In this document: piece after piece, positions 16,434-53,537 of the stretch | How positions within the stretch are numbered: position 1 is the first letter of the stretch | How the letters are laid out: the number at the start of each line of letters is the position of its first letter | Source of the DNA: an uncultured Prevotellaceae bacterium | Lineage (GTDB): Bacteria; Bacteroidota; Bacteroidia; Bacteroidales; Bacteroidaceae | NCBI GenBank assembly: GCA_902779455.1 | Contig: CACZBS010000006.1 | Span: forward strand, 1-64,000 | Reading direction: 5' to 3' | DNA length: 64,000 nucleotides | Translations under genes and position numbers: made by a program | Notes under the pieces: generated by a model | Told to the model about the DNA's origin: nothing | What the model saw: the letters and a program-made list of their open reading frames with translations, nothing else | The model's database searches: none

Positions 16434-16777
16434 CGTATATTTTCCCAAATGGCCAAGAAAATGAATAGAATACTTGATTTATATCAATAATTTGGTTGAT
16501 TTGTAATAGAAATGCCGGTAAAACTTGTGGATTGTAAGAAAAGGTCGTACCTTTGCATCGTGTTTTTCATAGTATTAGATTTAAGGTTAACAAAGGTTGG
16601 GTCACGGCGGTGACCCTTTTTTTGTGTCTCGAAATGATGTTTTTTGTAATAAAATGAAACTTTTCTCGCCGAAAATGATGGTCGGTATTGATTTTTTTTG
16701 TATATTTGCCATCGAAATTAAAGGAAACAGTCGTATAACTTAACTTTATATTATTTACAAAGAACAAAACAAACGTT
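16429..16777. other. Intergenic region with a small transcription unit and aquaporin promoter
   Basis: This 349-base region lies between the divergently transcribed esterase and aquaporin genes. It holds the esterase promoter (16433-16426), a promoter-terminator pair framing a short RNA (16525-16623), and a TATATTTG element (16701-16708) likely to drive the aquaporin gene, with a leader of about 65 nt. Confidence 0.65.
16525..16623 (+). ncRNA. Short transcription unit, possible small RNA or attenuated leader
   Basis: TTG (16525-16527), a 20-base gap and TACCTTTG (16548-16555) form a strong promoter. About 45 bases downstream GGGTCAC-GGCG-GTGACCC (16599-16616) followed by TTTTTTT (16617-16623) is an intrinsic terminator. 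The transcript would be about 63 nt (from near 16561). Its middle (GTATTAGATTTAAGGTTAAC) looks like a sequence I remember recurring in Bacteroidales intergenic regions, but I cannot name an RNA family. It contains no plausible ORF. It may be an independent small RNA or an attenuator ahead of the aquaporin gene. Confidence 0.5.
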
Positions 16778-21439: not shown

Positions 21440-21790
21440 TTATTTCGTTTTCTGCATGCGGATGTACTTAATCTTGGCTCCTAACGTCTGCCATTCGGCC
21501 TGGAGCGAGTCGCGGCGGGCGCGCAACTGGTTCAGCCGCACCACCTCGGGCGACCGCCCGTCGAGCTTCGTGGCGTGCTCCATGACCCACTGGTGCTGGG
21601 CGTCATGGTCGCGTCTGACCGCTTCCAGGGCGCTGTCGACCTCCGCCAGCCGCTGTTGCGCTTCGGCCAAGGCGGAGTCTTGCTTGTGCGTGAGTGCTGC
21701 CCGTCGGGCCTCAATCTCGTCACGTCGTGAGTGGTTGCCGCAGGCCGTTATCACGGCCACGACGGCGAGTGATAGTATCATTTGTTTCAT
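21440..21790 (-). CDS. Small coiled-coil lipoprotein
   Basis: A 116-residue protein with a short lipoprotein signal (MILSLAVVAVITAC, lipobox Cys at about residue 17) and a long, charged, Ala/Glu/Arg-rich helix (about 30-105) likely to form a coiled coil. No named domain. It probably sits on the periplasmic face of a membrane. The ATG at 21790 is preceded by TAATTTTG (21807-21800) with a 10-base gap, again a near-leaderless arrangement. It diverges from cca. Confidence 0.7.
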   Translation of the reverse strand: MKQMILSLAVVAVITACGNHSRRDEIEARRAALTHKQDSALAEAQQRLAEVDSALEAVRRDHDAQHQWVMEHATKLDGRSPEVVRLNQLRARRDSLQAEWQTLGAKIKYIRMQKTK

Positions 21791-21883
21791 ATCCGCTTGC
21801 AAAATTACAAAATAAATGTGAATAGTCGGCCGAATATTCTGATTTATTTTGTACCTTTGTGGCCTGTAATTGATTTATCTTGG

Positions 21884-23398
21884 ATGAAATTATATACTGA
21901 CGACGAACTGGCAGTCATTCTCGACAAGCCAATCTTTCACCAGATAGGACGCGTGGCCGACGAACTGGGTGTGGAGTGCTACGTGGTAGGCGGTTATGTG
22001 CGCGACATCTTCCTCGAGCGCCCCTCGAACGACATCGACGTGGTGGTCGTGGGCAGCGGCATCGAAGTGGCCAGGCGGCTGAAGGATCAGCTCGGGCGGA
22101 GGGCCCACCTGAGCGTGTTTAAGAATTTCGGTACGGCGCAGGTGAAGATGGGCGAGCTCGAAGTGGAATTCGTCGGGGCGCGCCGCGAGAGCTACAACCA
22201 CGACTCACGCAAGCCCATCGTCGAGGACGGCACGCTGGAGGACGACCAGAACCGGCGCGACTTCACTATCAACGCGATGGCCATCTGCCTCAACGAAGGG
22301 CGCTTCGGCGAGCTCGTCGACCCCTTCAACGGACTGGCCGACCTCGAGGACGGCATCATCGCCACGCCGCTCGACCCTGAGGTGACGTTCAGCGACGACC
22401 CGCTGCGCATGATGCGCTGCATCCGTTTCGCCACGCAGCTCAACTTCCAGATCGAGCCCGAGACCTTCGAGGCCCTCGAGCGCATGGCCGACCGCATCAG
22501 GATTGTCAGTGGCGAGCGCATCGAGGTGGAGCTCAACAAGATCATCATGGCCCCTCATCCCAGCAAGGGCTTCGTCGACCTGCAGCGCTCCGGCCTGCTC
22601 GGCATCATCCTGCCCGAGCTGTCGGCGCTCGACATCGTCGAGCAGAAGAACGGCCGGGCGCACAAGAACAATTTCTATCATACGCTGGAGGTGCTGGAGA
22701 ATGTCGCGGCCCCCTCCAACCTCCCCCCACTGGGGGAGGCTGCTGCGCCATGTACCTCCGCGGAAAAAGCCTCCCCCAGTGGGGGGAGGTTGGAGGGGGC
22801 CTGGCTCCGCTGGGCCGCCCTGCTCCACGACATCGGCAAGACGAAGACGAAGCGGTGGGACCCGCTGGTGGGCTGGACCTTCCATAACCATAATTATATA
22901 GGAGCGAAGATGGTGCCCCAGATCTTCCGACGCCTCAAACTGCCCATGGGACAGGAGATGCGCTACGTCGAGAAGCTCGTCGACCTGCACATGCGGCCGC
23001 AGGCCATCGCCGACAACGAGGTGACCGACTCGGCCGTGCGGCGCCTGCTCAACGACGCCGGCGACGACATCGACGACCTGATGACGCTCTGCGAGGCCGA
23101 CATCACGTCGAAGAACGAGGTCAGGAAGAAGGTGTTCCTCGAGAACTTCCGCATGGTGCGCGAGAAGCTGGCCGACCTCGTCGACAAGGACTACAAGCGA
23201 CTGCTGCAGCCCTGCATCGACGGCAACGAGATCATGGCGCTGTTCGGACTGAAGCCCTCGCGCGAGGTGGGCACGCTGAAGCAATGCCTGAAGGACGCCG
23301 TGCTCGACAACCGCGTCGAGAACGAGCGCGAGCCGCTCATGGCCCTGCTTATGGAGAAGGCCCGTTCCATGGGCCTCACCCCCGTAGCCCAAAGTTAA
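21884..23398 (+). CDS. cca: CCA tRNA nucleotidyltransferase / poly(A) polymerase family with in-frame palindromic insert
   Basis: A 504-residue class II nucleotidyltransferase with an HD domain. The head has YVVGGYVRDIFLERPSNDIDVVVVG (metal-binding Asp pair), RRDFTINAMA and DPLRMMRCIRFATQL. A C-terminal HD domain carries RWAALLHDIGK. The enzyme adds or repairs the 3'-CCA of tRNA. Residues about 276-306 (APSNLPPLGEA...RLEGAW), just before the HD motif, come from a 94-bp perfect palindrome (22708-22801), where relatives have a short loop between TLEVL and WLRWAALLHDIGK. The ATG at 21884 is preferred to upstream in-frame starts because the TACCTTTG promoter element at 21852-21859 lies between them. 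Confidence 0.92.
   Translation: MKLYTDDELAVILDKPIFHQIGRVADELGVECYVVGGYVRDIFLERPSNDIDVVVVGSGIEVARRLKDQLGRRAHLSVFKNFGTAQVKMGELEVEFVGARRESYNHDSRKPIVEDGTLEDDQNRRDFTINAMAICLNEGRFGELVDPFNGLADLEDGIIATPLDPEVTFSDDPLRMMRCIRFATQLNFQIEPETFEALERMADRIRIVSGERIEVELNKIIMAPHPSKGFVDLQRSGLLGIILPELSALDIVEQKNGRAHKNNFYHTLEVLENVAAPSNLPPLGEAAAPCTSAEKASPSGGRLEGAWLRWAALLHDIGKTKTKRWDPLVGWTFHNHNYIGAKMVPQIFRRLKLPMGQEMRYVEKLVDLHMRPQAIADNEVTDSAVRRLLNDAGDDIDDLMTLCEADITSKNEVRKKVFLENFRMVREKLADLVDKDYKRLLQPCIDGNEIMALFGLKPSREVGTLKQCLKDAVLDNRVENEREPLMALLMEKARSMGLTPVAQS
22708..22801 (+). repeat. 94-bp GC-rich palindromic insert in cca
   Basis: Left arm 22708-22741 and right arm 22768-22801 are exact inverse copies over 34 bp (starting GGCCCCCTCCAACC), separated by a 26-base spacer. 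Read in the cca frame it encodes APSNLPPLGEA-AAPCTSAEKA-SPSGGRLEGA. Length, arm size, spacer size, orientation and frame equal those of the copies at 30008-30101 and 48087-48180. Confidence 0.95.
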
Positions 23399-28873: not shown

Positions 28874-29533
28874 ATGATACACTTAGAAGACGTCAACAAG
28901 ACCTACTTCGGCGCTCAGCCGCTCCACGTGCTCAAGGGCATCACCCTCGACATCCGGGAGGGTGAGTTCGTCTCGATCATGGGCGCCTCCGGCTCGGGCA
29001 AGTCGACGCTGCTCAACATCCTGGGCATCCTCGACAACTACGACTCGGGGCGCTATGAGCTCGCGGGGGTGCTGATCAAGGACCTCTCGGAGCGCCGCGC
29101 CGCCGAATACCGCAACCGCATGATCGGCTTCATCTTCCAGTCGTTCAACCTCATCGGATTCAAGACGGCCGTCGAGAACGTCGAGCTGCCGCTGTTCTAT
29201 CAGGGCGTCGCACGACGCAAGCGCCACCAGCTGGCCCTCGACTACCTCGAGCGGCTGGGACTGCTCGACTGGGCCGACCACTATCCCAATGAGCTCAGCG
29301 GCGGACAGAAGCAGCGCGTGGCCATCGCCCGCGCTCTCATCACGCGCCCCAAGCTCATCCTCGCCGACGAGCCCACGGGCGCCCTCGACTCGAAGACGTC
29401 GGTCGAGGTGATGCAGTTGCTGAAGGAGCTCAACGCCGAGGAGCACATCACGCAGGTCATCGTCACCCACGACCCGACGGTGGCTGAACGAACGAACCGC
29501 ATCATACGCATCAAGGATGGAGTTATTGAATGA
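28874..29533 (+). CDS. MacB/LolD-type ABC ATPase of an efflux operon
   Basis: A 219-residue ATPase with MIHLEDVNKTYFGAQPLHVLKGI at the start, Walker A GASGSGKST, signature LSGGQKQR, Walker B LILADEPTGALD and IVTHDP: the MacB/LolD class that drives FtsX-like permeases. The ATG at 28874 fits the family; the frame upstream to 28835 contains the promoter element TAACTTTG. It overlaps the next permease gene by 17 bases and heads a five-gene efflux operon. Confidence 0.93.
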   Translation: MIHLEDVNKTYFGAQPLHVLKGITLDIREGEFVSIMGASGSGKSTLLNILGILDNYDSGRYELAGVLIKDLSERRAAEYRNRMIGFIFQSFNLIGFKTAVENVELPLFYQGVARRKRHQLALDYLERLGLLDWADHYPNELSGGQKQRVAIARALITRPKLILADEPTGALDSKTSVEVMQLLKELNAEEHITQVIVTHDPTVAERTNRIIRIKDGVIE

Positions 29534-30830
29534 GATATGGCAGACAGTACGGCGCAACAAGCTGCGCACGGGCCTGACGGGATTTGCCGTGGCCTGGGGC
29601 ATCTTCATGCTCATCGTCCTGCTGGGCGCCGGCAACGGACTGATCAACGCCCAGATGAAGCAGTCGGACCGCTTCCTGTCGAACTCGATGATGGTGTTCG
29701 GCGGAATGACCACCAAGCCCTATAAGGGGCTGCAGGAGGGCCGCTACCTGCCGCTGAAGGACCGCGACATCGCGGCCACGCGCACCGACTTCCCCCAGAC
29801 CGTCGACCACGTCGGGGCCGTCCTCTCGCAGTATGGGCAGACCGTCTCCTACGGACAGCAGTATCTCTCGACCTCGCTCGTGGGCGTCTATCCCAACCAC
29901 TTCCAGATCGAGAAGACGGAGATGCTCCATGGCCGCTTCATCAACGAGATTGACATGCGCCAGAAGCGTAAAGTCATTGTCCTGGGTAACAACCAGGTGA
30001 AGGAGTTGGCCCCCTCCAACCTCCCCCCATTGGGGGAGGCTTCCAGCGCTGAAGCATCGGGCGCAGCAGCCTCCCCCAATGAGGGGAGGTTGGTGGGGGC
30101 CTACGTCAAGGTTGGGGCCTTCGCCTTCCGCGTCGTCGGCATCTATAAGGAGCGCGAGAACGGTTCGGCCGACGCCTTCATCCCTTACACCACGCTGAAG
30201 ACGATGTACGGCAAGGGCGACGACGCCGGGCGCATCGAGTTCACCTTCCACGGACTGGAGACCGAGCAGCAGAACGAGCAGTTCGAGCACAGCTACACGC
30301 AGCGCCTCGGGGCCAACCATCAGGTGGCGCCCGACGACGAGGATGCCTTCTGGCTCTGGAACCGCTACACGCAGTCGATGCAGATGCAGAAGGGCATCGG
30401 CATCATCCGCATGGCCCTCTGGATCGTCGGTCTGTTCACGCTCCTGAGCGGCATCGTCGGCGTCTCTAACATCATGCTCATCACCGTCCGCGAGCGCACC
30501 CATGAGTTCGGCATCCGCAAGGCCATCGGGGCCCGGCCCGGGAGCATCCTCAAGCTCATCATCACCGAGAGCATCATCATCACCACCATCTTCGGCTACG
30601 TCGGCATGCTGCTCGGCATCGCCGCCAACGAATATATGGACGCCACGCTGGGACATACCAAGGTGGACGCCGGACTCTTCAAGGCCACGATGTTCGTCGA
30701 CCCCACCGTCGGCATCGACGTCTGCATCGAGGCCACCCTCGTCATGATCCTGGCCGGCACCGTCGCCGGTCTCATCCCCGCCATGAAGGCCGCCCGCATA
30801 CGTCCCATTGAAGCTCTAAGAGCAGAATAG
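29517..30830 (+). CDS. FtsX/MacB-like permease 1 with in-frame palindromic insert
   Basis: A 437-residue inner-membrane permease with one N-terminal membrane helix (about 20-40), a large periplasmic domain (about 45-290) and three C-terminal helices (near 300-325, 350-375 and 400-425). Family motifs include SGIVGVSNIMLITVRERTHEFGIRKAIGARPGSI and AGLIPAMKAARIRPIEALRAE. Residues about 164-194 (APSNLPPLGEA...GRLVGA) are encoded by a 94-bp palindrome (30008-30101). The sister permease has LFPGGGDPCGK at this spot, so the insert replaced or displaced a conserved periplasmic loop. Probably works as a heterodimer with permease 2. Confidence 0.92.
   Translation: MELLNEIWQTVRRNKLRTGLTGFAVAWGIFMLIVLLGAGNGLINAQMKQSDRFLSNSMMVFGGMTTKPYKGLQEGRYLPLKDRDIAATRTDFPQTVDHVGAVLSQYGQTVSYGQQYLSTSLVGVYPNHFQIEKTEMLHGRFINEIDMRQKRKVIVLGNNQVKELAPSNLPPLGEASSAEASGAAASPNEGRLVGAYVKVGAFAFRVVGIYKERENGSADAFIPYTTLKTMYGKGDDAGRIEFTFHGLETEQQNEQFEHSYTQRLGANHQVAPDDEDAFWLWNRYTQSMQMQKGIGIIRMALWIVGLFTLLSGIVGVSNIMLITVRERTHEFGIRKAIGARPGSILKLIITESIIITTIFGYVGMLLGIAANEYMDATLGHTKVDAGLFKATMFVDPTVGIDVCIEATLVMILAGTVAGLIPAMKAARIRPIEALRAE
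30008..30101 (+). repeat. 94-bp GC-rich palindromic insert in the MacB-like permease gene
   Basis: Arms 30008-30041 and 30068-30101 are inverse copies with few mismatches around a 26-base spacer. In frame it encodes APSNLPPLGEA-SSAEASGAAA-SPNEGRLVGA. Same length, orientation and frame as the copies in cca and murA. Confidence 0.93.
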
Positions 30831-46392: not shown

Positions 46393-46905
46393 TTACAATT
46401 CTAACAGTCCTTCGGGCAGGTCGATGGTGATTGTCTTTTGGTCGTGGTCGACGTCGGTGATGAGGTCCTCGGCGGCGGGGATGAGGCGGCCGTCCTCGAG
46501 TTCGAAGAGGATGTTGGCGGTCTGGTCGTCGACGTGGACGATGCGGCCGACGGGGCGGCCGGTGTGGGCGTCGATGAGGTCGAAGCCGGTGAAGAAACTC
46601 CAGCGGAGCTCCTCCTCGTCATCGTGCGGGGTGAGGGCGCGGGGGAAGTAGACGTCGCAGTTGGTCAGCTCGCGGGCCCGCTCCTGCGTGTCGACGTCCT
46701 CCAGCTTGAGGATGGCGGTGGTGTCGGAGCGGAAGCGATATTCCTCGATGAAGAAGGGCACGAGGATGCCGTCGACCTCCAGGATGAGGTAGTCGGCGTC
46801 GGCGCGGTCGAAGACGTCGTCGTCGAACTGGAACGACAGCTCGCCCTTGACGCCGTGGGGCTTGCCGAGGCGTCCGATGCGATAGGCTTCGTCGGGCCGT
46901 ATCAT
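46393..46905 (-). CDS. rimM: Ribosome maturation factor RimM
   Basis: A 170-residue cytoplasmic protein needed for 16S rRNA processing and 30S head maturation. The N-terminal RimM domain (YRIGRLGKPHGVKGELSFQF, about 6-90) and C-terminal PRC-barrel (GFDLIDAHTGRPVGRIVHVDD, about 100-168) are complete. The start overlaps the murA stop by four bases (ATGA). Confidence 0.95.
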   Translation of the reverse strand: MIRPDEAYRIGRLGKPHGVKGELSFQFDDDVFDRADADYLILEVDGILVPFFIEEYRFRSDTTAILKLEDVDTQERARELTNCDVYFPRALTPHDDEEELRWSFFTGFDLIDAHTGRPVGRIVHVDDQTANILFELEDGRLIPAAEDLITDVDHDQKTITIDLPEGLLEL

Positions 46906-48374
46906 CTGGCCCCCCCTTCTGCCCCCGAGGGGGCTACATTAGTTTTGTTGGCAGAAGCCGGGTCTATTGAAGCCCCCTCGGGGGCCGTAGGGGGGGCTAA
47001 GCGTGTGATCCTTGCCCCCAGGGCATTGAGTCGCTGCTCGATGTGCTCATAGCCGCGGTCGATCTGCTCGATGTTGTCGATGCGACTGGTGCCGCGGGCA
47101 CTGAGGGCTGCGATGAGCAGGGCGATGCCGGCGCGGATGTCGGGGCTCGACATGCGGCCGGCGCGGAGCTGCAGCTTGCGGTCGTGGCCTACGACGACGG
47201 CGCGGTGAGGGTCGCAGAGGATGATCTGTGCGCCCATGTCGATGAGCTTGTCGACGAAGAAGAGTCGGCTCTCGAACATCTTCTGGTGGAACAGCACCGA
47301 GCCGCGGGCCTGCGTGGCCACGGTGATGAGCACCGAGATGAGGTCGGGCGTCAGGCCGGGCCAGGGGGCGTCGGCCAGGGTCATGATGGTGCCGTCGATG
47401 AACGACTGTATCTCGTAGTGGCGCATGTGGGGGATGACGAGGTCGTCGCCCTCCACCTTGATGCGGATGCCCATACGGCGGAACGTGTCGGGTATGATGC
47501 CGAGGTCGCTAAGCGAGACGTCCTTGATGCGGATGCCGTCGCCGATGATGGCGGCCATGCCGATGAAGGAGCCCACCTCGATCATGTCGGGCAGCAGGCG
47601 GTGGGTGGTGCCGCCGAGGCGGTCGACGCCCTTGATGGTGAGCAGGTTGGAGCCGATGCCGTCGATGCTTGCGCCCATGCGGGTGAGCATGCGGCAGAGC
47701 TGCTGGACGTAGGGCTCGCAGGCTGCATTATATATAGTGGTGGTGCCCTGAGCCAGTACGGCGGCCATGATGATGTTGGCCGTGCCCGTGACGGAGGCCT
47801 CGTCGAGCAGCATGTAGGTGCCACGCAGCCGGCTGGCCGATATCTGGTAGACGCCGCGCTCGGCGACGTGGCTGAACTGCGCGCCCAGTCGCTCGAAGCC
47901 GAGGAAGTGGGTGTCGAGGCGTCGGCGTCCGATCTTGTCGCCGCCGGGCTTGGCCACGATGGCGCGGCCGAAGCGGGCCAGCAGCGGTCCGATCATCATC
48001 ACCGAGCCGCGCAGGTGGGAGCACTTCTCGACGAACTCGTTGCTCTCCAGGAAGTCGAGGTTGAGCGATGAGGCATCAAAGGTGAGGGCCCCCTCCGACC
48101 TCCCCCAACTGGGGGAGGCTGCAGCCCCAGAGACTTCAGCGGCTTTAGCCTCCCCCAGTTGGGGGAGGTTGGAGGGGGCCGTTACTTTGACCCCCATATC
48201 CTTGAGCAGCTGGATGAGGTTATTGACGTCGCGGATGTCAGGGATGTTCGAAATGGTGACGGGCTCATCGGTCAGCAGCGTGGCACAGATGACCTGCAGG
48301 GCCTCGTTCTTGGCGCCCTGCGGGGTGATGGTGCCGCTCAGCGGATGGCCGCCTTCGATGATGAATGATGCCAT
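46902..48374 (-). CDS. murA: UDP-GlcNAc enolpyruvyltransferase MurA with two palindromic inserts
   Basis: A 490-residue cytoplasmic enzyme for the first committed step of peptidoglycan synthesis; ordinary forms are about 430 residues. TPQGAKNEALQVI carries the essential Lys. The position of the usual fosfomycin-target Cys is Asp (KPGGDKIGRRRLDTHF), a natural variant expected to resist fosfomycin. The excess length comes from repeats: residues about 66-96 (APSNLPQLGEA...GRSEGA) from the 94-bp palindrome at 48087-48180, and the last about 31 residues (APPTAPEGA...SGAEGGAR) from a second palindrome at 46908-46998. The core is otherwise intact. Confidence 0.94.
   Translation of the reverse strand: MASFIIEGGHPLSGTITPQGAKNEALQVICATLLTDEPVTISNIPDIRDVNNLIQLLKDMGVKVTAPSNLPQLGEAKAAEVSGAAASPSWGRSEGALTFDASSLNLDFLESNEFVEKCSHLRGSVMMIGPLLARFGRAIVAKPGGDKIGRRRLDTHFLGFERLGAQFSHVAERGVYQISASRLRGTYMLLDEASVTGTANIIMAAVLAQGTTTIYNAACEPYVQQLCRMLTRMGASIDGIGSNLLTIKGVDRLGGTTHRLLPDMIEVGSFIGMAAIIGDGIRIKDVSLSDLGIIPDTFRRMGIRIKVEGDDLVIPHMRHYEIQSFIDGTIMTLADAPWPGLTPDLISVLITVATQARGSVLFHQKMFESRLFFVDKLIDMGAQIILCDPHRAVVVGHDRKLQLRAGRMSSPDIRAGIALLIAALSARGTSRIDNIEQIDRGYEHIEQRLNALGARITRLAPPTAPEGASIDPASANKTNVAPSGAEGGAR
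46908..46998 (-). repeat. 91-bp palindrome of a second type forming the MurA C-terminus
   Basis: Arms 46908-46935 and 46971-46998 (28 bp, mostly matching inverse copies with core GCCCCCGAGGGGGC) surround a 35-base spacer. On the coding strand it reads APPTAPEGASIDPASANK, then TNVAPSGAEGGA, two residues before the stop that overlaps rimM. Its sequence differs from the 94-bp type. Confidence 0.88.
48087..48180 (-). repeat. 94-bp GC-rich palindromic insert in murA
   Basis: Arms 48087-48120 and 48147-48180 are inverse copies over 34 bp with one mismatch, with a 26-base spacer. On the murA coding strand it reads APSNLPQLGEA-KAAEVSGAAA-SPSWGRSEGA, the same peptide family, orientation and frame as in cca and the permease. 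Confidence 0.95.
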
Positions 48375-50097: not shown

Positions 50098-50243
50098 AGA
50101 CCCCCCCCGACCCCTCCCCTTGAGGGGAGGGGAGAAGCGCGGCGTCATTCCCGTCGGACAGGGCGGCAGCCTCTCCTCCCCTTTGGGGAGGTCGGGAGGG
50201 GCTACTCCCCTCCCTTCAAGGGGAGGGGTCGGTGGTGGGGTCT
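50098..50243. repeat. Nested GC-rich palindromes in the nitroreductase leader
   Basis: The outer arms 50098-50134 and 50205-50243 are imperfect inverse copies (shared core GACCCCTCCCCTTGA), each with its own CCCCTCCCCTTGAGGGGAGGGG-like internal palindrome. A third unit (50170-50202, CTCCCCTTTGGGGAGG) lies between. The units resemble those around gmk and nadD. It contains a C8 run (50101-50108). In RNA it would be a strongly folded leader. Confidence 0.85.
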
Positions 50244-50926: not shown

Positions 50927-51798
50927 TACAGTCAATGACTGGCTACGGCAAGGCCGTCGTAGCCTTTAAGGATAAGAAGATCAGCGCGGAGATCAAGTCG
51001 CTCAACTCTAAGCAGCTCGACCTGCAGACGCGCATCGCACCGCTCTATCGCGAGAAGGAGATGGAGATCCGGCAGATGATTGCCACGGCACTGGAGCGCG
51101 GCAAGGTCGACTTCTCGCTCTGGATCGAGCGCGACGCAGGCGTCGAGGCCACACCCGTCAACGGCGCCCTCGTGGAGAACTACTACCATCAGCTCAAGGA
51201 CCTCGCAGGGCGCGTCGGCATACCCGAGCCGCAGGACTGGATGTCCACGCTGGTGCGCATGCCCGACGTGCTGGCGAAGACCGAGCAGGTGGAGCTGACC
51301 GACGAGGAGTGGGCGGCCGCCCGCCAGGCCGTCGTCGAGGCCATCGAGGCGCTCGTCGGCTTCCGCCGGCAGGAGGGTGCCGCCCTGGAGAAGAAGTTCA
51401 ACGAGAAGGTCGACAACATTGAGCGCCTGCTGGCCGAGATCGAGCCCTACGAGAAGGCGCGGGTGGAGAAGATCCGCCAGCGCATCGTCGACGGACTGCA
51501 GCAGATCCCTGGCGTCGAATACGACAAGAACCGCCTGGAGCAGGAGCTCATCTACTACATCGAGAAGCTCGACATCAGCGAGGAGAAGCAGCGGCTGACG
51601 AACCACCTGAAGTACTTCCGCGAGACCATGCGCGACGGCCACGGACAGGGAAAGAAGCTCGGATTCATCGCCCAGGAGATGGGCCGCGAGATCAACACCA
51701 CGGGCTCGAAGTCGAACCTGGCCGAGATGCAGAACATCGTCGTCCAGATGAAGGACGAGCTGGAGCAGATCAAGGAGCAGGTGCTGAATGCACTGTAA
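50923..51798 (+). CDS. yicC: YicC-family endoribonuclease-like protein
   Basis: A 291-residue cytoplasmic protein with the family hallmarks MIQSMTGYGKA at the N-terminus and FIAQEMGREINTTGSKSN near the C-terminus, separated by a long helical region (about 150-230). YicC proteins are hexameric RNases in other bacteria. It overlaps the nitroreductase stop (ATGA) and precedes gmk and nadD, the usual Bacteroidales order, but a DUF559 element now separates yicC from gmk. Confidence 0.93.
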   Translation: MIQSMTGYGKAVVAFKDKKISAEIKSLNSKQLDLQTRIAPLYREKEMEIRQMIATALERGKVDFSLWIERDAGVEATPVNGALVENYYHQLKDLAGRVGIPEPQDWMSTLVRMPDVLAKTEQVELTDEEWAAARQAVVEAIEALVGFRRQEGAALEKKFNEKVDNIERLLAEIEPYEKARVEKIRQRIVDGLQQIPGVEYDKNRLEQELIYYIEKLDISEEKQRLTNHLKYFRETMRDGHGQGKKLGFIAQEMGREINTTGSKSNLAEMQNIVVQMKDELEQIKEQVLNAL

Positions 51799-52876
51799 GG
51801 GAGCCTCCCCCGACCCCTCCGAAGGAGGGGAGCCAGAAGAGGGGGATGGTTGGCGCGATAGATGGTGTCATATGAAGAAACAGTGTTTTGGGTATGAGAC
51901 GGCAGGTGTCACTTATGATATTCTAAGAAGGTTTTCTAAAGACCATCGACGATATATGACACCCGCAGAGTCGGCTCTATGGGAACTGTTGCGAGGAAAA
52001 CAGTTCGGCTACAGATTCCGCAGGCAACATCCCATAGGAGATTATATCCCGGACTTTGTTTGCCTGCCAAAGCGTTTGGTGATTGAAGTTGACGGAGGCT
52101 ACCACTTTGTTGGGAATCAGTCATTTTCAGACCAAGAAAGGACTATTTATCTGAATCAACATGGTTTTGCAGTATTAAGGTTTACCAATGACGAGGTGAT
52201 AGGAAACACAGAATATGTAATGAAAAGAATACAAGAAGTAATGGATAATCAACCCACTATTAATAGCACAGGCAGTGCGCAGCCACTCCCCTCCTTCGGA
52301 GGGGTCGGGGGAGGCTTGGTCATCTTCTCTGCCCCCAGCGGCAGCGGCAAGTCGACCATCGTGCAGTGGCTCATGCAGGAGCATCCGGAGCTGCGGCTCT
52401 ATTTCTCCATTTCGTGCACCTCGCGCCCGCCGCGCGGCACGGAGCAGGACGGCGTGGAGTACTTCTTCCTCACGCCCGAGGAGTTCCGACAGAAGATTGA
52501 GAACGACGAGTTCCTCGAGTATGAGGAGGTCTATGAGGACCGCTTCTACGGCACGCTGAAGGCACAGGTGGAACGGCAGCTGGCGCAGGGGCAGAACGTC
52601 GTCTTCGACGTCGACGTCAAGGGTGGCGTCAACATCAAGCGCTTCTATGGTGAGCGGGCCCTGAGCCTCTTCATCCAGCCCCCGTCGGTCGAGGAGCTGC
52701 GCCGTCGCCTCGAGGGCCGCGGCACTGACACCCCCGAGGCCATCGAGGCCCGGCTGGCCAAGGCCTCCTACGAGCTCACCTTCGCCCCGCAGTTCGACCA
52801 CATCGTCGTCAACGACGACCTCGAACAGGCCAAGCAGGAGACCCTCGCACTCATCAAAACCTTTCTAAGTGAATAA
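51788..52876 (+). CDS. gmk: DUF559 endonuclease-domain / guanylate kinase fusion
   Basis: One frame of up to 362 residues encodes two unrelated parts. Residues about 29-150 are a DUF559 (Vsr-like, PD-(D/E)xK superfamily) nuclease domain: RYMTPAESALWELLRGKQFG, RFRRQHPIGDYIPDFVC, LVIEVDGGYHF and AVLRFTNDEVI. From about 176 it is guanylate kinase (GMP to GDP), with P-loop IFSAPSGSGKSTIV, SCTSRPPRGTEQDGVEYFFL and VVFDVDVKGGVNIK. The nuclease part lies between 31-bp perfect inverted repeats (51802-51832 and 52286-52316); the right copy reads SAQPLPSFGGVGGG and replaces the native gmk start. Translation could begin at 51788, at the nuclease ATG 51869, or at the internal ATG 52240, which gives a nearly normal kinase. 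Confidence 0.9.
   Translation: MHCKGASPDPSEGGEPEEGDGWRDRWCHMKKQCFGYETAGVTYDILRRFSKDHRRYMTPAESALWELLRGKQFGYRFRRQHPIGDYIPDFVCLPKRLVIEVDGGYHFVGNQSFSDQERTIYLNQHGFAVLRFTNDEVIGNTEYVMKRIQEVMDNQPTINSTGSAQPLPSFGGVGGGLVIFSAPSGSGKSTIVQWLMQEHPELRLYFSISCTSRPPRGTEQDGVEYFFLTPEEFRQKIENDEFLEYEEVYEDRFYGTLKAQVERQLAQGQNVVFDVDVKGGVNIKRFYGERALSLFIQPPSVEELRRRLEGRGTDTPEAIEARLAKASYELTFAPQFDHIVVNDDLEQAKQETLALIKTFLSE
51802..52316 (+). mobile_element. 515-bp putative mobile element: DUF559 nuclease ORF between 31-bp inverted repeats
   Basis: The left end 51802-51832 and right end 52286-52316 are exact inverse copies. Each has an internal palindrome CCCCTCC-GAA-GGAGGGG (or its inverse). The interior encodes a complete DUF559 domain with candidate catalytic residues and has clearly lower GC than yicC and gmk. 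It lies exactly between two genes that are adjacent in related bacteria. No convincing target-site duplication was seen; at most GG flanks both sides. Mobility is inferred. Confidence 0.7.
52278..52325 (+). repeat. GC-rich repeat unit at the gmk N-terminus
   Basis: The unit GCGCAGCCACTCCCCTCC...GGGGGAGGCTTGGTCATC contains the right inverted repeat of the DUF559 element and ends at the first conserved gmk codons. Two near-copies stand head to tail before nadD (52884-52976). Confidence 0.8.
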
Positions 52877-53537
52877 CCACAATGCGCCAGCCCCTCCCCT
52901 CCCTCGGAGGGGTCGGGGGAGGCCCGTCATCGCGCCAGCCACTCCCCTCCCTCGGAGGGGGCAGGGGAGGCTCATCGGCCTCTTCGGGGGAAGCTTCAAC
53001 CCCATCCATGTGGGTCATATCGCCCTGGCCCGCGAGCTGCGCCGGCTGGCGGGGCTCGACGAGGTGTGGCTGATGGTGTCGCCGCAGAACCCGCTGAAGC
53101 AGGGGCAGACGGATCTGATTGACGATCAGCTGCGCTTTGCCATGGCGCGCATCGCCCTCCACGGTGAGGAGGGTCTCGTGGCCAGCGACTACGAGTTGCA
53201 CCTGCCGCGTCCCAGCTACACATGGCACACGCTGCAACGGCTGCGCGAGGACTTCCCGCAGCACACCTTTATATTATTAATAGGTGGCGACAACTGGGAG
53301 CGCTTCCCGCAGTGGTATCGTGCTGACGACATCGTCCGCGAATACCGCATCGTAGTCTATCCCCGCCGTGGCAGCGACATCGACCGCACGGCCCTGCCGC
53401 CCACCGTCACCGTCGTCGACACCCCGCTGCTCGACATCTCGAGCACCGAGATCCGTCAGCGGGTGCGCCAGGGACAGAGCATCAAAAACAGCGTACCCGA
53501 GGCTATCGCGCCTCTGGTACGCCGTCTGTATACTTAG
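52869..53537 (+). CDS. nadD: Nicotinate-nucleotide adenylyltransferase with repeat-derived N-terminus
   Basis: A 222-residue frame. From residue 35 it is a normal NadD, joining nicotinate mononucleotide and ATP: IGLFGGSFNPIHVGHIALA (with HxGH), SPQNPLKQ, YTWHTLQRLR, FILLIGGDNWERFPQWY and DISSTEIRQRVRQGQ. The first 34 residues (APAPPLPRRGRGRPVI and APATPLPRRGQGRL) come from two direct repeat units and replace the native start. The only in-frame start is GTG 52869, inside the end of gmk (8-base overlap); the ATG at 52882 is in another frame. Confidence 0.93.
   Translation: MNNHNAPAPPLPRRGRGRPVIAPATPLPRRGQGRLIGLFGGSFNPIHVGHIALARELRRLAGLDEVWLMVSPQNPLKQGQTDLIDDQLRFAMARIALHGEEGLVASDYELHLPRPSYTWHTLQRLREDFPQHTFILLIGGDNWERFPQWYRADDIVREYRIVVYPRRGSDIDRTALPPTVTVVDTPLLDISSTEIRQRVRQGQSIKNSVPEAIAPLVRRLYT
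52884..52976 (+). repeat. Two direct GC-rich repeat units at the nadD N-terminus
   Basis: Unit 1 (52884-52931) and unit 2 (52932-52976) share GCGCCAGCC(C/A)CTCCCCTCC...CGGAGGGG...GGGGAGGC and differ by a few substitutions and a 3-base length change. They match the unit at 52278-52325 and are in frame with nadD from GTG 52869. Confidence 0.9.

Follow-up and report, generated by a model that had tools for sequence, protein, structure and literature searches.

Coding palindromes of Prevotella-type bacteria as probable short forms of a hairpin-ended mobile element carrying a DUF559 nuclease

The three 94-bp palindromes in cca, a MacB-like permease gene, and murA are members of a dispersed repeat family of Prevotella-type bacteria, referred to as family A. 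We regard these palindromes as probable short, presumably non-autonomous forms of a hairpin-ended mobile element that carries a DUF559 nuclease, kept in genes only where their translation is tolerable. They lie in the window, i.e., the whole 64,000-nucleotide stretch of DNA analysed from an uncultured Prevotellaceae bacterium.

Architecture and distribution of family A

22708 to 22801, plus strand: family-A 94-bp element in cca (ORF 21782-23398), encoding APSNLPPLGEA...ASPSGGRLEGA; 34-bp arms perfect
30008 to 30101, plus strand: family-A 94-bp element in the gene for a MacB-like/FtsX permease (ORF 29517-30830); spacer opposite to that of the cca copy
48087 to 48180, minus strand: family-A 94-bp element in murA (ORF 46902-48374, minus strand), in a loop that varies in length and content among relatives

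The sequence-only reading had described each copy as a 34-bp arm, a 26-bp spacer, and a second 34-bp arm, which was correct in position and size for all three. Its claim of a perfect palindrome in cca was borne out by the single-strand fold, in which 34 of 34 arm pairs form, and the common peptide and frame that it assigned to the three copies held on translation. Regarding orientation, it had taken every copy to run with its host gene; the spacer, which is asymmetric (GCTGCGCCAnnnnnTCCGCnGnAA), instead runs with the gene in cca and against it in the other two hosts. Despite the opposite spacers, the peptide is identical because the palindrome reads alike in both directions.

Folded as a single strand, the cca copy gave a dG of -51.8 kcal/mol (z -11.8 against shuffles), the MacB-like copy, with two arm mismatches, -45.1 kcal/mol (z -9.8), and the murA copy, with one, -51.3 kcal/mol (z -11.7). 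The 17-mer core of the arm was matched six times in the window at up to three mismatches, against a shuffle mean of 0.31. Pfam assigned the host proteins to PolyA_pol/HD (cca), MacB_PCD/FtsX (the permease), and EPSP_synthase (murA). The sole gathering-level Rfam match of the window was BTncRNA_FopS, a Bacteroidetes paralogous sRNA family, at 16560-16626 on the plus strand (79.1 bits).

The source genome (G000; 49 contigs, 3.70 Mb, 93% complete) holds seven complete 94-bp elements and another three arms that are diverged or single, two further places at three mismatches (C6:93994 and C28:25158) being excluded as other repeats. Among its additional hosts are an ECF sigma factor, where the insert separates regions 2 and 4, along with a topoisomerase, a WbqC-like protein, and peptidases of types M20 and M16; no Pfam family was found for two of the ten host proteins scanned (L010 and L012). 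An exact 16-mer was present in 6 of 60 genomes, namely G000, 4 of 35 others of the genus, and 1 of 24 from other families. A scan of named genomes, which picks arms with a nested hairpin, returned at least 115 stretches with family-A arms; among the 80 listed, 73 were titled Prevotella or Prevotellaceae, many of them from ruminants, and the remaining 7 bore Bacteroides, Xylanibacter, Bacteroidota, or bacterium titles. Five whole genomes contained 39, 39, 13, 9, and 5 arms at no more than one mismatch. Copies G060:C116:25 and G065:C8:193492, and those of G064 beyond the ones in the scan, were left out of the counts. The start of the spacer matched at 7 or more of 11 positions in 15 of 17 94-bp elements, which indicates that the 94-bp form is one copied unit.

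Reading frame and the translated peptide

Strand and frame were called from the flanks alone, with the element omitted, using a codon-usage model trained on long ORFs. From 190 non-duplicate elements, taken from five sampled genomes and the scan, 5 with short flanks were dropped, and the 185 classified comprised 103 in a gene (both flanks in one frame), 54 at the end of a gene (38 at the 3' and 16 at the 5' side), 7 flanked by differing frames, one of which (L010) is in G000, and 21 uncalled. The 103 in-gene elements, which include 94-bp, other two-arm, and single-arm forms, are spread over 74 host families, and 102 are open throughout, the exception being L098, which has a stop; since 17 of the 103 form a weak class that is open by definition, the strict figure is 85 of 86.

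The window peptide, APSNLP.../...ASPSGGRLEGA, is read by 78 of the 103. Among these in-gene elements, the sense arm was used in the frames APSNLP, SPLQPPP, and PPPTSP 37, 6, and 1 times, and the antisense arm in the frames ASPSGGRLEGA, SLPQSGEVGGG, and PPPVGGGWRG 41, 14, and 4 times. When each host family and frame was counted only once, single arms gave 18/3/1 for the sense (p=8e-6) and 25/9/4 for the antisense orientation (p=7e-5). One frame per arm is thus enriched, the outcome for which the sequence-only reading had looked. The consensus arm is stop-free in every frame, and openness therefore does not explain the bias. For 94-bp elements, the APSNLP frame was open in 36 of 36 readings and the other frames in 25-27 of 36.

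The two arm orientations favour different codon grids (chi2 p=1e-8), a result that speaks for selection on the translated peptide, a good explanation of the frame bias, and against a DNA-level insertion phase, a poor one. Two causes had been proposed from the sequence, selection for a tolerated peptide and insertion through a translated intermediate: the frame statistics favour the former, and the need for the latter is unsupported. The kept frame indicates that the in-gene family-A inserts are most likely translated, because an element spliced from RNA would have no need of a frame. Comparison with relatives further identified the residues as inserts in variable-length loops of cca and murA, the relatives serving as examples rather than counts, as the pattern anchors missed many orthologues.

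The DUF559 nuclease and its hairpin ends

L045, L058, L094, and L105 each have two family-A arms in a single gene and frame, separated by 426-534 bp from start to start, and the domain between the arms is DUF559 (Pfam E 1e-30 to 6e-35). L114 has a 5' arm and a DUF559 domain, the overlapping locus L361 providing a somewhat diverged 3' end. Arms of family A enclose DUF559 in frame in cca (L105, L379, and L361, with L360 at a second site), mazG (L336), and priA (L294). The domain (PF04480) was present in 14 of 16 genomes searched. G000, in its 93%-complete assembly, has no family-A nuclease; its four DUF559 matches, one of which is in gmk of the window, carry other end types. The view of the palindromes as in-frame elements like those of Rickettsia stood, apart from orientation and the translated intermediate, and it had overlooked DUF559 in gmk, DUF559 between family-A arms, and a second, unrelated family of coding palindromes in murA. 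The features concerned are as follows:

51788 to 52876, plus strand: ORF with a DUF559 element fused in frame to the gmk N-terminus (Pfam DUF559 E 6e-32, Guanylate_kin E 6e-43)
51802 to 51832, plus strand: upstream hairpin end of the gmk DUF559 element, family-B type, AGCCTCCCCCGACCCCTCCGAAGGAGGGGAG
51926 to 52243, plus strand: DUF559 (PF04480) Vsr/EDxHD-type nuclease domain in the gmk ORF
52286 to 52316, minus strand: downstream hairpin end of the gmk DUF559 element, an inverted copy of 51802-51832
52906 to 52919, minus strand: family-B hairpin end just 3' of gmk, between two genes in different frames
50104 to 50235, no strand assigned: hairpin pair of the high-copy family B, whose core is common to the gmk element ends, at the end of a gene
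46909 to 46998, minus strand: family-C hairpin pair of 90 bp, in frame at the murA C-terminus (APPTAPEGASID...NVAPSGAEGGA), with ends as in the DUF559 element of contig C19

The core of family B (CCCCCGACCCCTCC) occurs at 282 places in G000 at no more than one mismatch, compared with 7 for the reversed control. Among 28 clusters (30 loci of the 282 places), 2 are inside genes, one open and one with a stop, 9 are at gene ends, 5 lie between differently framed genes, and 12 are without a coding call. Family C (CCCCTTCTGCCCCCGAGGGGGC) occurs at 26 places in the same genome (control 0), two of which flank the DUF559 gene on contig C19; 16 of its 22 clusters are open and inside genes, each of them in the one frame that reads APSGAVGGA or the partner SAPEGATID. 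The murA gene of the window holds both a family-A element and the C-terminal family-C pair. For family A in G000, 6 of 10 elements are inside genes by strict calls and 8 of 10 when L005 and L009 are added from ORFs, and this in-gene share differs from that of family B (Fisher p=0.0017 and 4e-5, respectively). The contrast among the three families in one genome indicates that residence in genes is a property of certain end families and not of others.

Repeats at the ends were examined for 124 DUF559 domains, consisting of 47 distinct near-full domains from the Prevotella side and 77 others, drawn from a sample across Bacteroidota, in which 61 of 118 genomes were positive, and from plasmid-collection records of Cyanobacteria, Deinococcus, and Alphaproteobacteria. 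The best inverted repeat between 220-bp flanks was scored with a threshold of 30, and windows of the same loci served as controls. Inverted ends were found at 44 of 47 Prevotella-side loci against 0 of 235 control windows, and at 39 of the 77 other loci against 0 of 185, leaving 38 of these 77 with no clear inverted repeat. Direct repeats at the same threshold were present at 39 of the 77 (controls 4 of 185), and their mean score in this set was 59.3, higher than the 34.8 of inverted repeats; in total, 53 loci had inverted or direct repeats, 14 had direct repeats only, and 24 had neither. Inverted hairpin ends are thus a general rule for the Prevotella side only, because the others often have direct repeats or neither; the case for family A stands, as it does not rest on those 77 loci. 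Long direct repeats surround many DUF559 genes in other Bacteroidota, for example at L404, L449, L447, L437, and L452.

Matched flanks outscored mismatched pairs (permutation 0/10000), and similarity of the ends tracked that of the nucleases (67 elements, Mantel r 0.41, 0/2000 permutations). The Prevotella-side ends mostly consist of a C-rich tag and a short hairpin. The inverted ends of the copy in Deinococcus psychrotolerans (L496), 71 bp long, look similar to family A by eye. The interior motif GCGCAGC, seen in 12 of 124 with 7.2 expected, was rejected as a feature of DUF559 in general; only L361 has the end of the 94-bp spacer. E. coli ycjD, a DUF559 gene between sapF and fabI, and the N. 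gonorrhoeae copy showed no clear inverted ends within 250 bp. A place covering at least 80% of the ycjD query was found in 3361 of 5426 genomes of an E. coli collection. As a clean presence/absence case ycjD was rejected, one strain without it having efflux genes beside sapF and the gene itself having no clear inverted ends.

Regarding the enzyme, six positions of the domain (20, 48, 59, 62, 65, and 74) hold E, D, E, G, H, and D, respectively, without variation in all 124 copies, embedded ones included; the active-site residues E, D, E, H, and D are among them. The DUF559 profile matched PDB 3hrl (endonuclease-like, E 4e-28) and 3r3p ("Mobile intron protein", E 6e-5), the latter of which we take to be I-Bth0305I. 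In the accessible part of a paper on Thermosynechococcus, DUF559 is placed in the EDxHD homing-endonuclease family (PMC9403480), a family described, in the part available, in PMC3943268. No intein domain was found by Pfam in any of the 30 fused DUF559 ORFs scanned, of 37, and the Rfam scan of the window returned no intron family.

By position, an open host frame encloses 19 of the 124 domains on both sides, 8 are fused N-terminally and 9 C-terminally, 47 stand free, and 41 are without a clear inverted repeat. A second, unrelated protein family was present in 26 of 30 long DUF559 ORFs scanned (of 37). The partners include cca (two sites), MazG, PriA, ABC-F, RNase H, IspF, guanylate kinase, an epimerase, an M23 peptidase, MetH, where it separates the two B12 domains, LeuRS, where it precedes the editing domain, and restriction-modification/methylase proteins, in the last of which DUF559 may be an ordinary domain. 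DUF559 lies at corresponding places of LeuRS in L386 and L409, and of MetH in L397 and L402, in different Bacteroidota genomes.

Origin of the palindromes and comparison with known systems

Two sites in cca were found in several states. Site 1, a short variable loop in relatives (VLENV-x-LWLRW), holds the 94-bp form in G000 (window 22708) and in L067 (L067:419), single arms of opposite hand in L332 and L125, and the nuclease form in L105, L379, and L361. The spacer is inverted between these two 94-bp copies, which are otherwise closely similar, and this suggests a flip between the arms or re-insertion. Site 2 is empty in the window and holds a single arm in L114, two arms in L056, and the nuclease form in L058 and L125, the last with an end type related to family A. 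These states were compared across species; near-identical strains with and without an insert were not in the sample, and movement itself was unseen. The same loops hold other repeat-like inserts (e.g., the peptides STLNSQL and NEERxxRNE) in L166 (cca of G023), L176 (cca of G022), and L196 (murA of G022), and these loops accordingly gather several kinds of repeats.

In the nuclease tree, L105, L379, L361, L360, L336, and L294 form, together with L125, one clade with a support of 0.952. Within the tree, L105 groups with cca site-2 copies (0.906), and L361 and L379 (0.953) are near priA and mazG copies (0.666 and 0.794). The nucleases of cca site 1 are not monophyletic, which suggests independent hits both on unrelated proteins and on one site. 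Together with the states of the two sites, this favours repeated insertion into tolerant loops, the same loop included, over a single ancient event.

These results bear on the possibility that the element is confined to site-specific homing, with fixed targets in conserved genes and the palindromes as dead remnants in place. The same sites are filled in several species (cca sites 1 and 2, murA, and RNase HII), single arms resemble remnants, and DUF559 is assigned to a homing-endonuclease family in the accessible part of PMC9403480. However, the 103 in-gene family-A elements occupy 74 host families, one nuclease clade spans cca, mazG, and priA, and a 94-bp unit with a conserved spacer occurs in unrelated genes, and homing alone is an unlikely account.

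We give somewhat less credence to REPINs moved by RAYT (TnpA_REP, an HUH tyrosine transposase), with the ends of the DUF559 elements alike by convergence. The definition of a REPIN as an inverted REP doublet forming a hairpin, in the part of PMC3116915 available, fits family A, and RAYT subclasses with atypical hairpins are reported from Bacteroidetes in the accessible part of PMC6006769. Against this, no match to Y1_Tnp (PF01797) was found in G000, family-A arms occurred at 0 of 6 Y1_Tnp loci of relatives, and the arms directly flank DUF559. REPs are, moreover, extragenic by name, a rule broken by family A (103 of 185 elements in genes) and family C (16 of 22), with family B at 2 of 28. A MITE family of a DDE transposase, whose IS partner with the same terminal repeats went unseen, appears still less probable: although long terminal inverted repeats, a length of approximately 94 bp, and multiple copies suit it, no target-site duplication was visible at 18 94-bp copies with flanks, the loops being highly variable and no strain-level empty site being at hand, and the gene found between family-A ends is DUF559. 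Neutral, low-complexity G+C-rich hairpins that agree in frame by chance, for which the C/G-rich arms and their freedom from stops in all frames might speak, are refuted by the counts against shuffles and controls, the conserved spacer, the frame statistics, and the contrast of families within one genome.

We therefore return to the reading of the palindromes as short forms of a DUF559-bearing element, which we infer for every step of its mechanism beyond the shared ends. In this reading, the short form is REPIN- or MITE-like, with two inverted hairpin ends and a short spacer, and the full form has the same ends around a DUF559 nuclease of approximately 110 aa of the Vsr-like/EDxHD homing-endonuclease family. 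Such an element would enter many unrelated sites at the DNA level, without splicing, its mobility presumably being driven by DUF559. Regarding the chemistry of insertion, the nuclease most likely would recognise its own hairpin ends, perhaps as extruded single strands, and/or nick the target, and repair would then copy the element into it. The 94-bp forms and single arms may arise by decay of full elements through internal deletion or by copying in trans, and the 94-bp form would itself move in trans. Insertion would lack phase specificity, purifying selection leaving the in-frame copies in loops and linkers, and within genes the element would persist only if both ends and the cargo are read in frame as part of a tolerated loop or linker. 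In families A and C, the ends encode stop-free peptides of small residues (APSNLP..GEA/ASPSGGRLEGA and APSGAVGGA/SAPEGATID), which a host protein can thus bear as a linker.

Full, short, single-arm, and empty states coexist in related species, and the question of the driver is thus testable with one small enzyme and defined ends. DUF559, a "domain of unknown function" of several bacterial phyla, would gain a biological setting, and the odd domain insertions in MetH, LeuRS, PriA, cca, and gmk would be accounted for. For annotation, these peptides should not be regarded as ancestral parts of the proteins. In the open literature, subscription journals being mostly outside the search, we found no account of palindrome-ended DUF559 elements or of Prevotella coding palindromes, in agreement with the earlier statement that no such description in Prevotella-like genomes was known.

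Among known systems, VsrA of Caulobacter shares the DUF559 domain and the PD-(D/E)XK superfamily; it is described as a nuclease with a predicted role in mismatch repair and a link to a methyltransferase, and palindromes are not mentioned in the accessible part of that paper (PMC12907096). The EDxHD/Vsr-like homing endonucleases, represented by I-Bth0305I, have a homologous domain (3r3p, E 6e-5) with the invariant E, D, E, H, and D, whereas the present elements have palindromic ends, many unrelated hosts, and multicopy short forms, and no intein was found in them. The REPIN/RAYT system is similar in its two inverted hairpin repeats, short spacer, multiple copies, and ends that diversify with the enzyme, as set out in the available part of PMC3116915. 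It differs in that the enzyme here is DUF559 and not a Y1 transposase, and in that families A and C are mostly in genes and read in frame.

In-frame palindromes of Rickettsia have been known since 2000. In the accessible parts of two accounts (PMC10969869 and PMC2229807), these elements (RPEs) and their Wolbachia counterparts are palindromes of approximately 100-150 bp that lie in frame in unrelated conserved genes, as well as outside genes, and form long stem-loops; neither account, in those parts, names a driver. The parallel drawn from the sequence alone was sound in that family A likewise consists of coding palindromes, of 94 bp, in unrelated genes, the comparison being one of architecture and placement. 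Family A differs from RPEs in belonging to Prevotella-type bacteria, of another phylum than Rickettsiales, and in having a nuclease-bearing full form with the same ends, none being mentioned for RPEs in the parts of PMC10969869 and PMC2229807 available. It is a striking coincidence that gmk hosts a DUF559 element here and an RPE in Rickettsia, according to the accessible part of PMC2229807.

Taken together, there is a fair chance that the driving element represents a new class. We hold at even odds the wider proposal of a DUF559 nuclease with REP-like hairpin ends that would transpose to unrelated sites, be translated unspliced in working proteins, and give rise in trans to short REPIN-like families that are coding. 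On the same proposal, families A and C would have ends that evolved to be translatable, family B would stay outside genes, and RPEs may be the traces of a similar system with a driver that has escaped detection.
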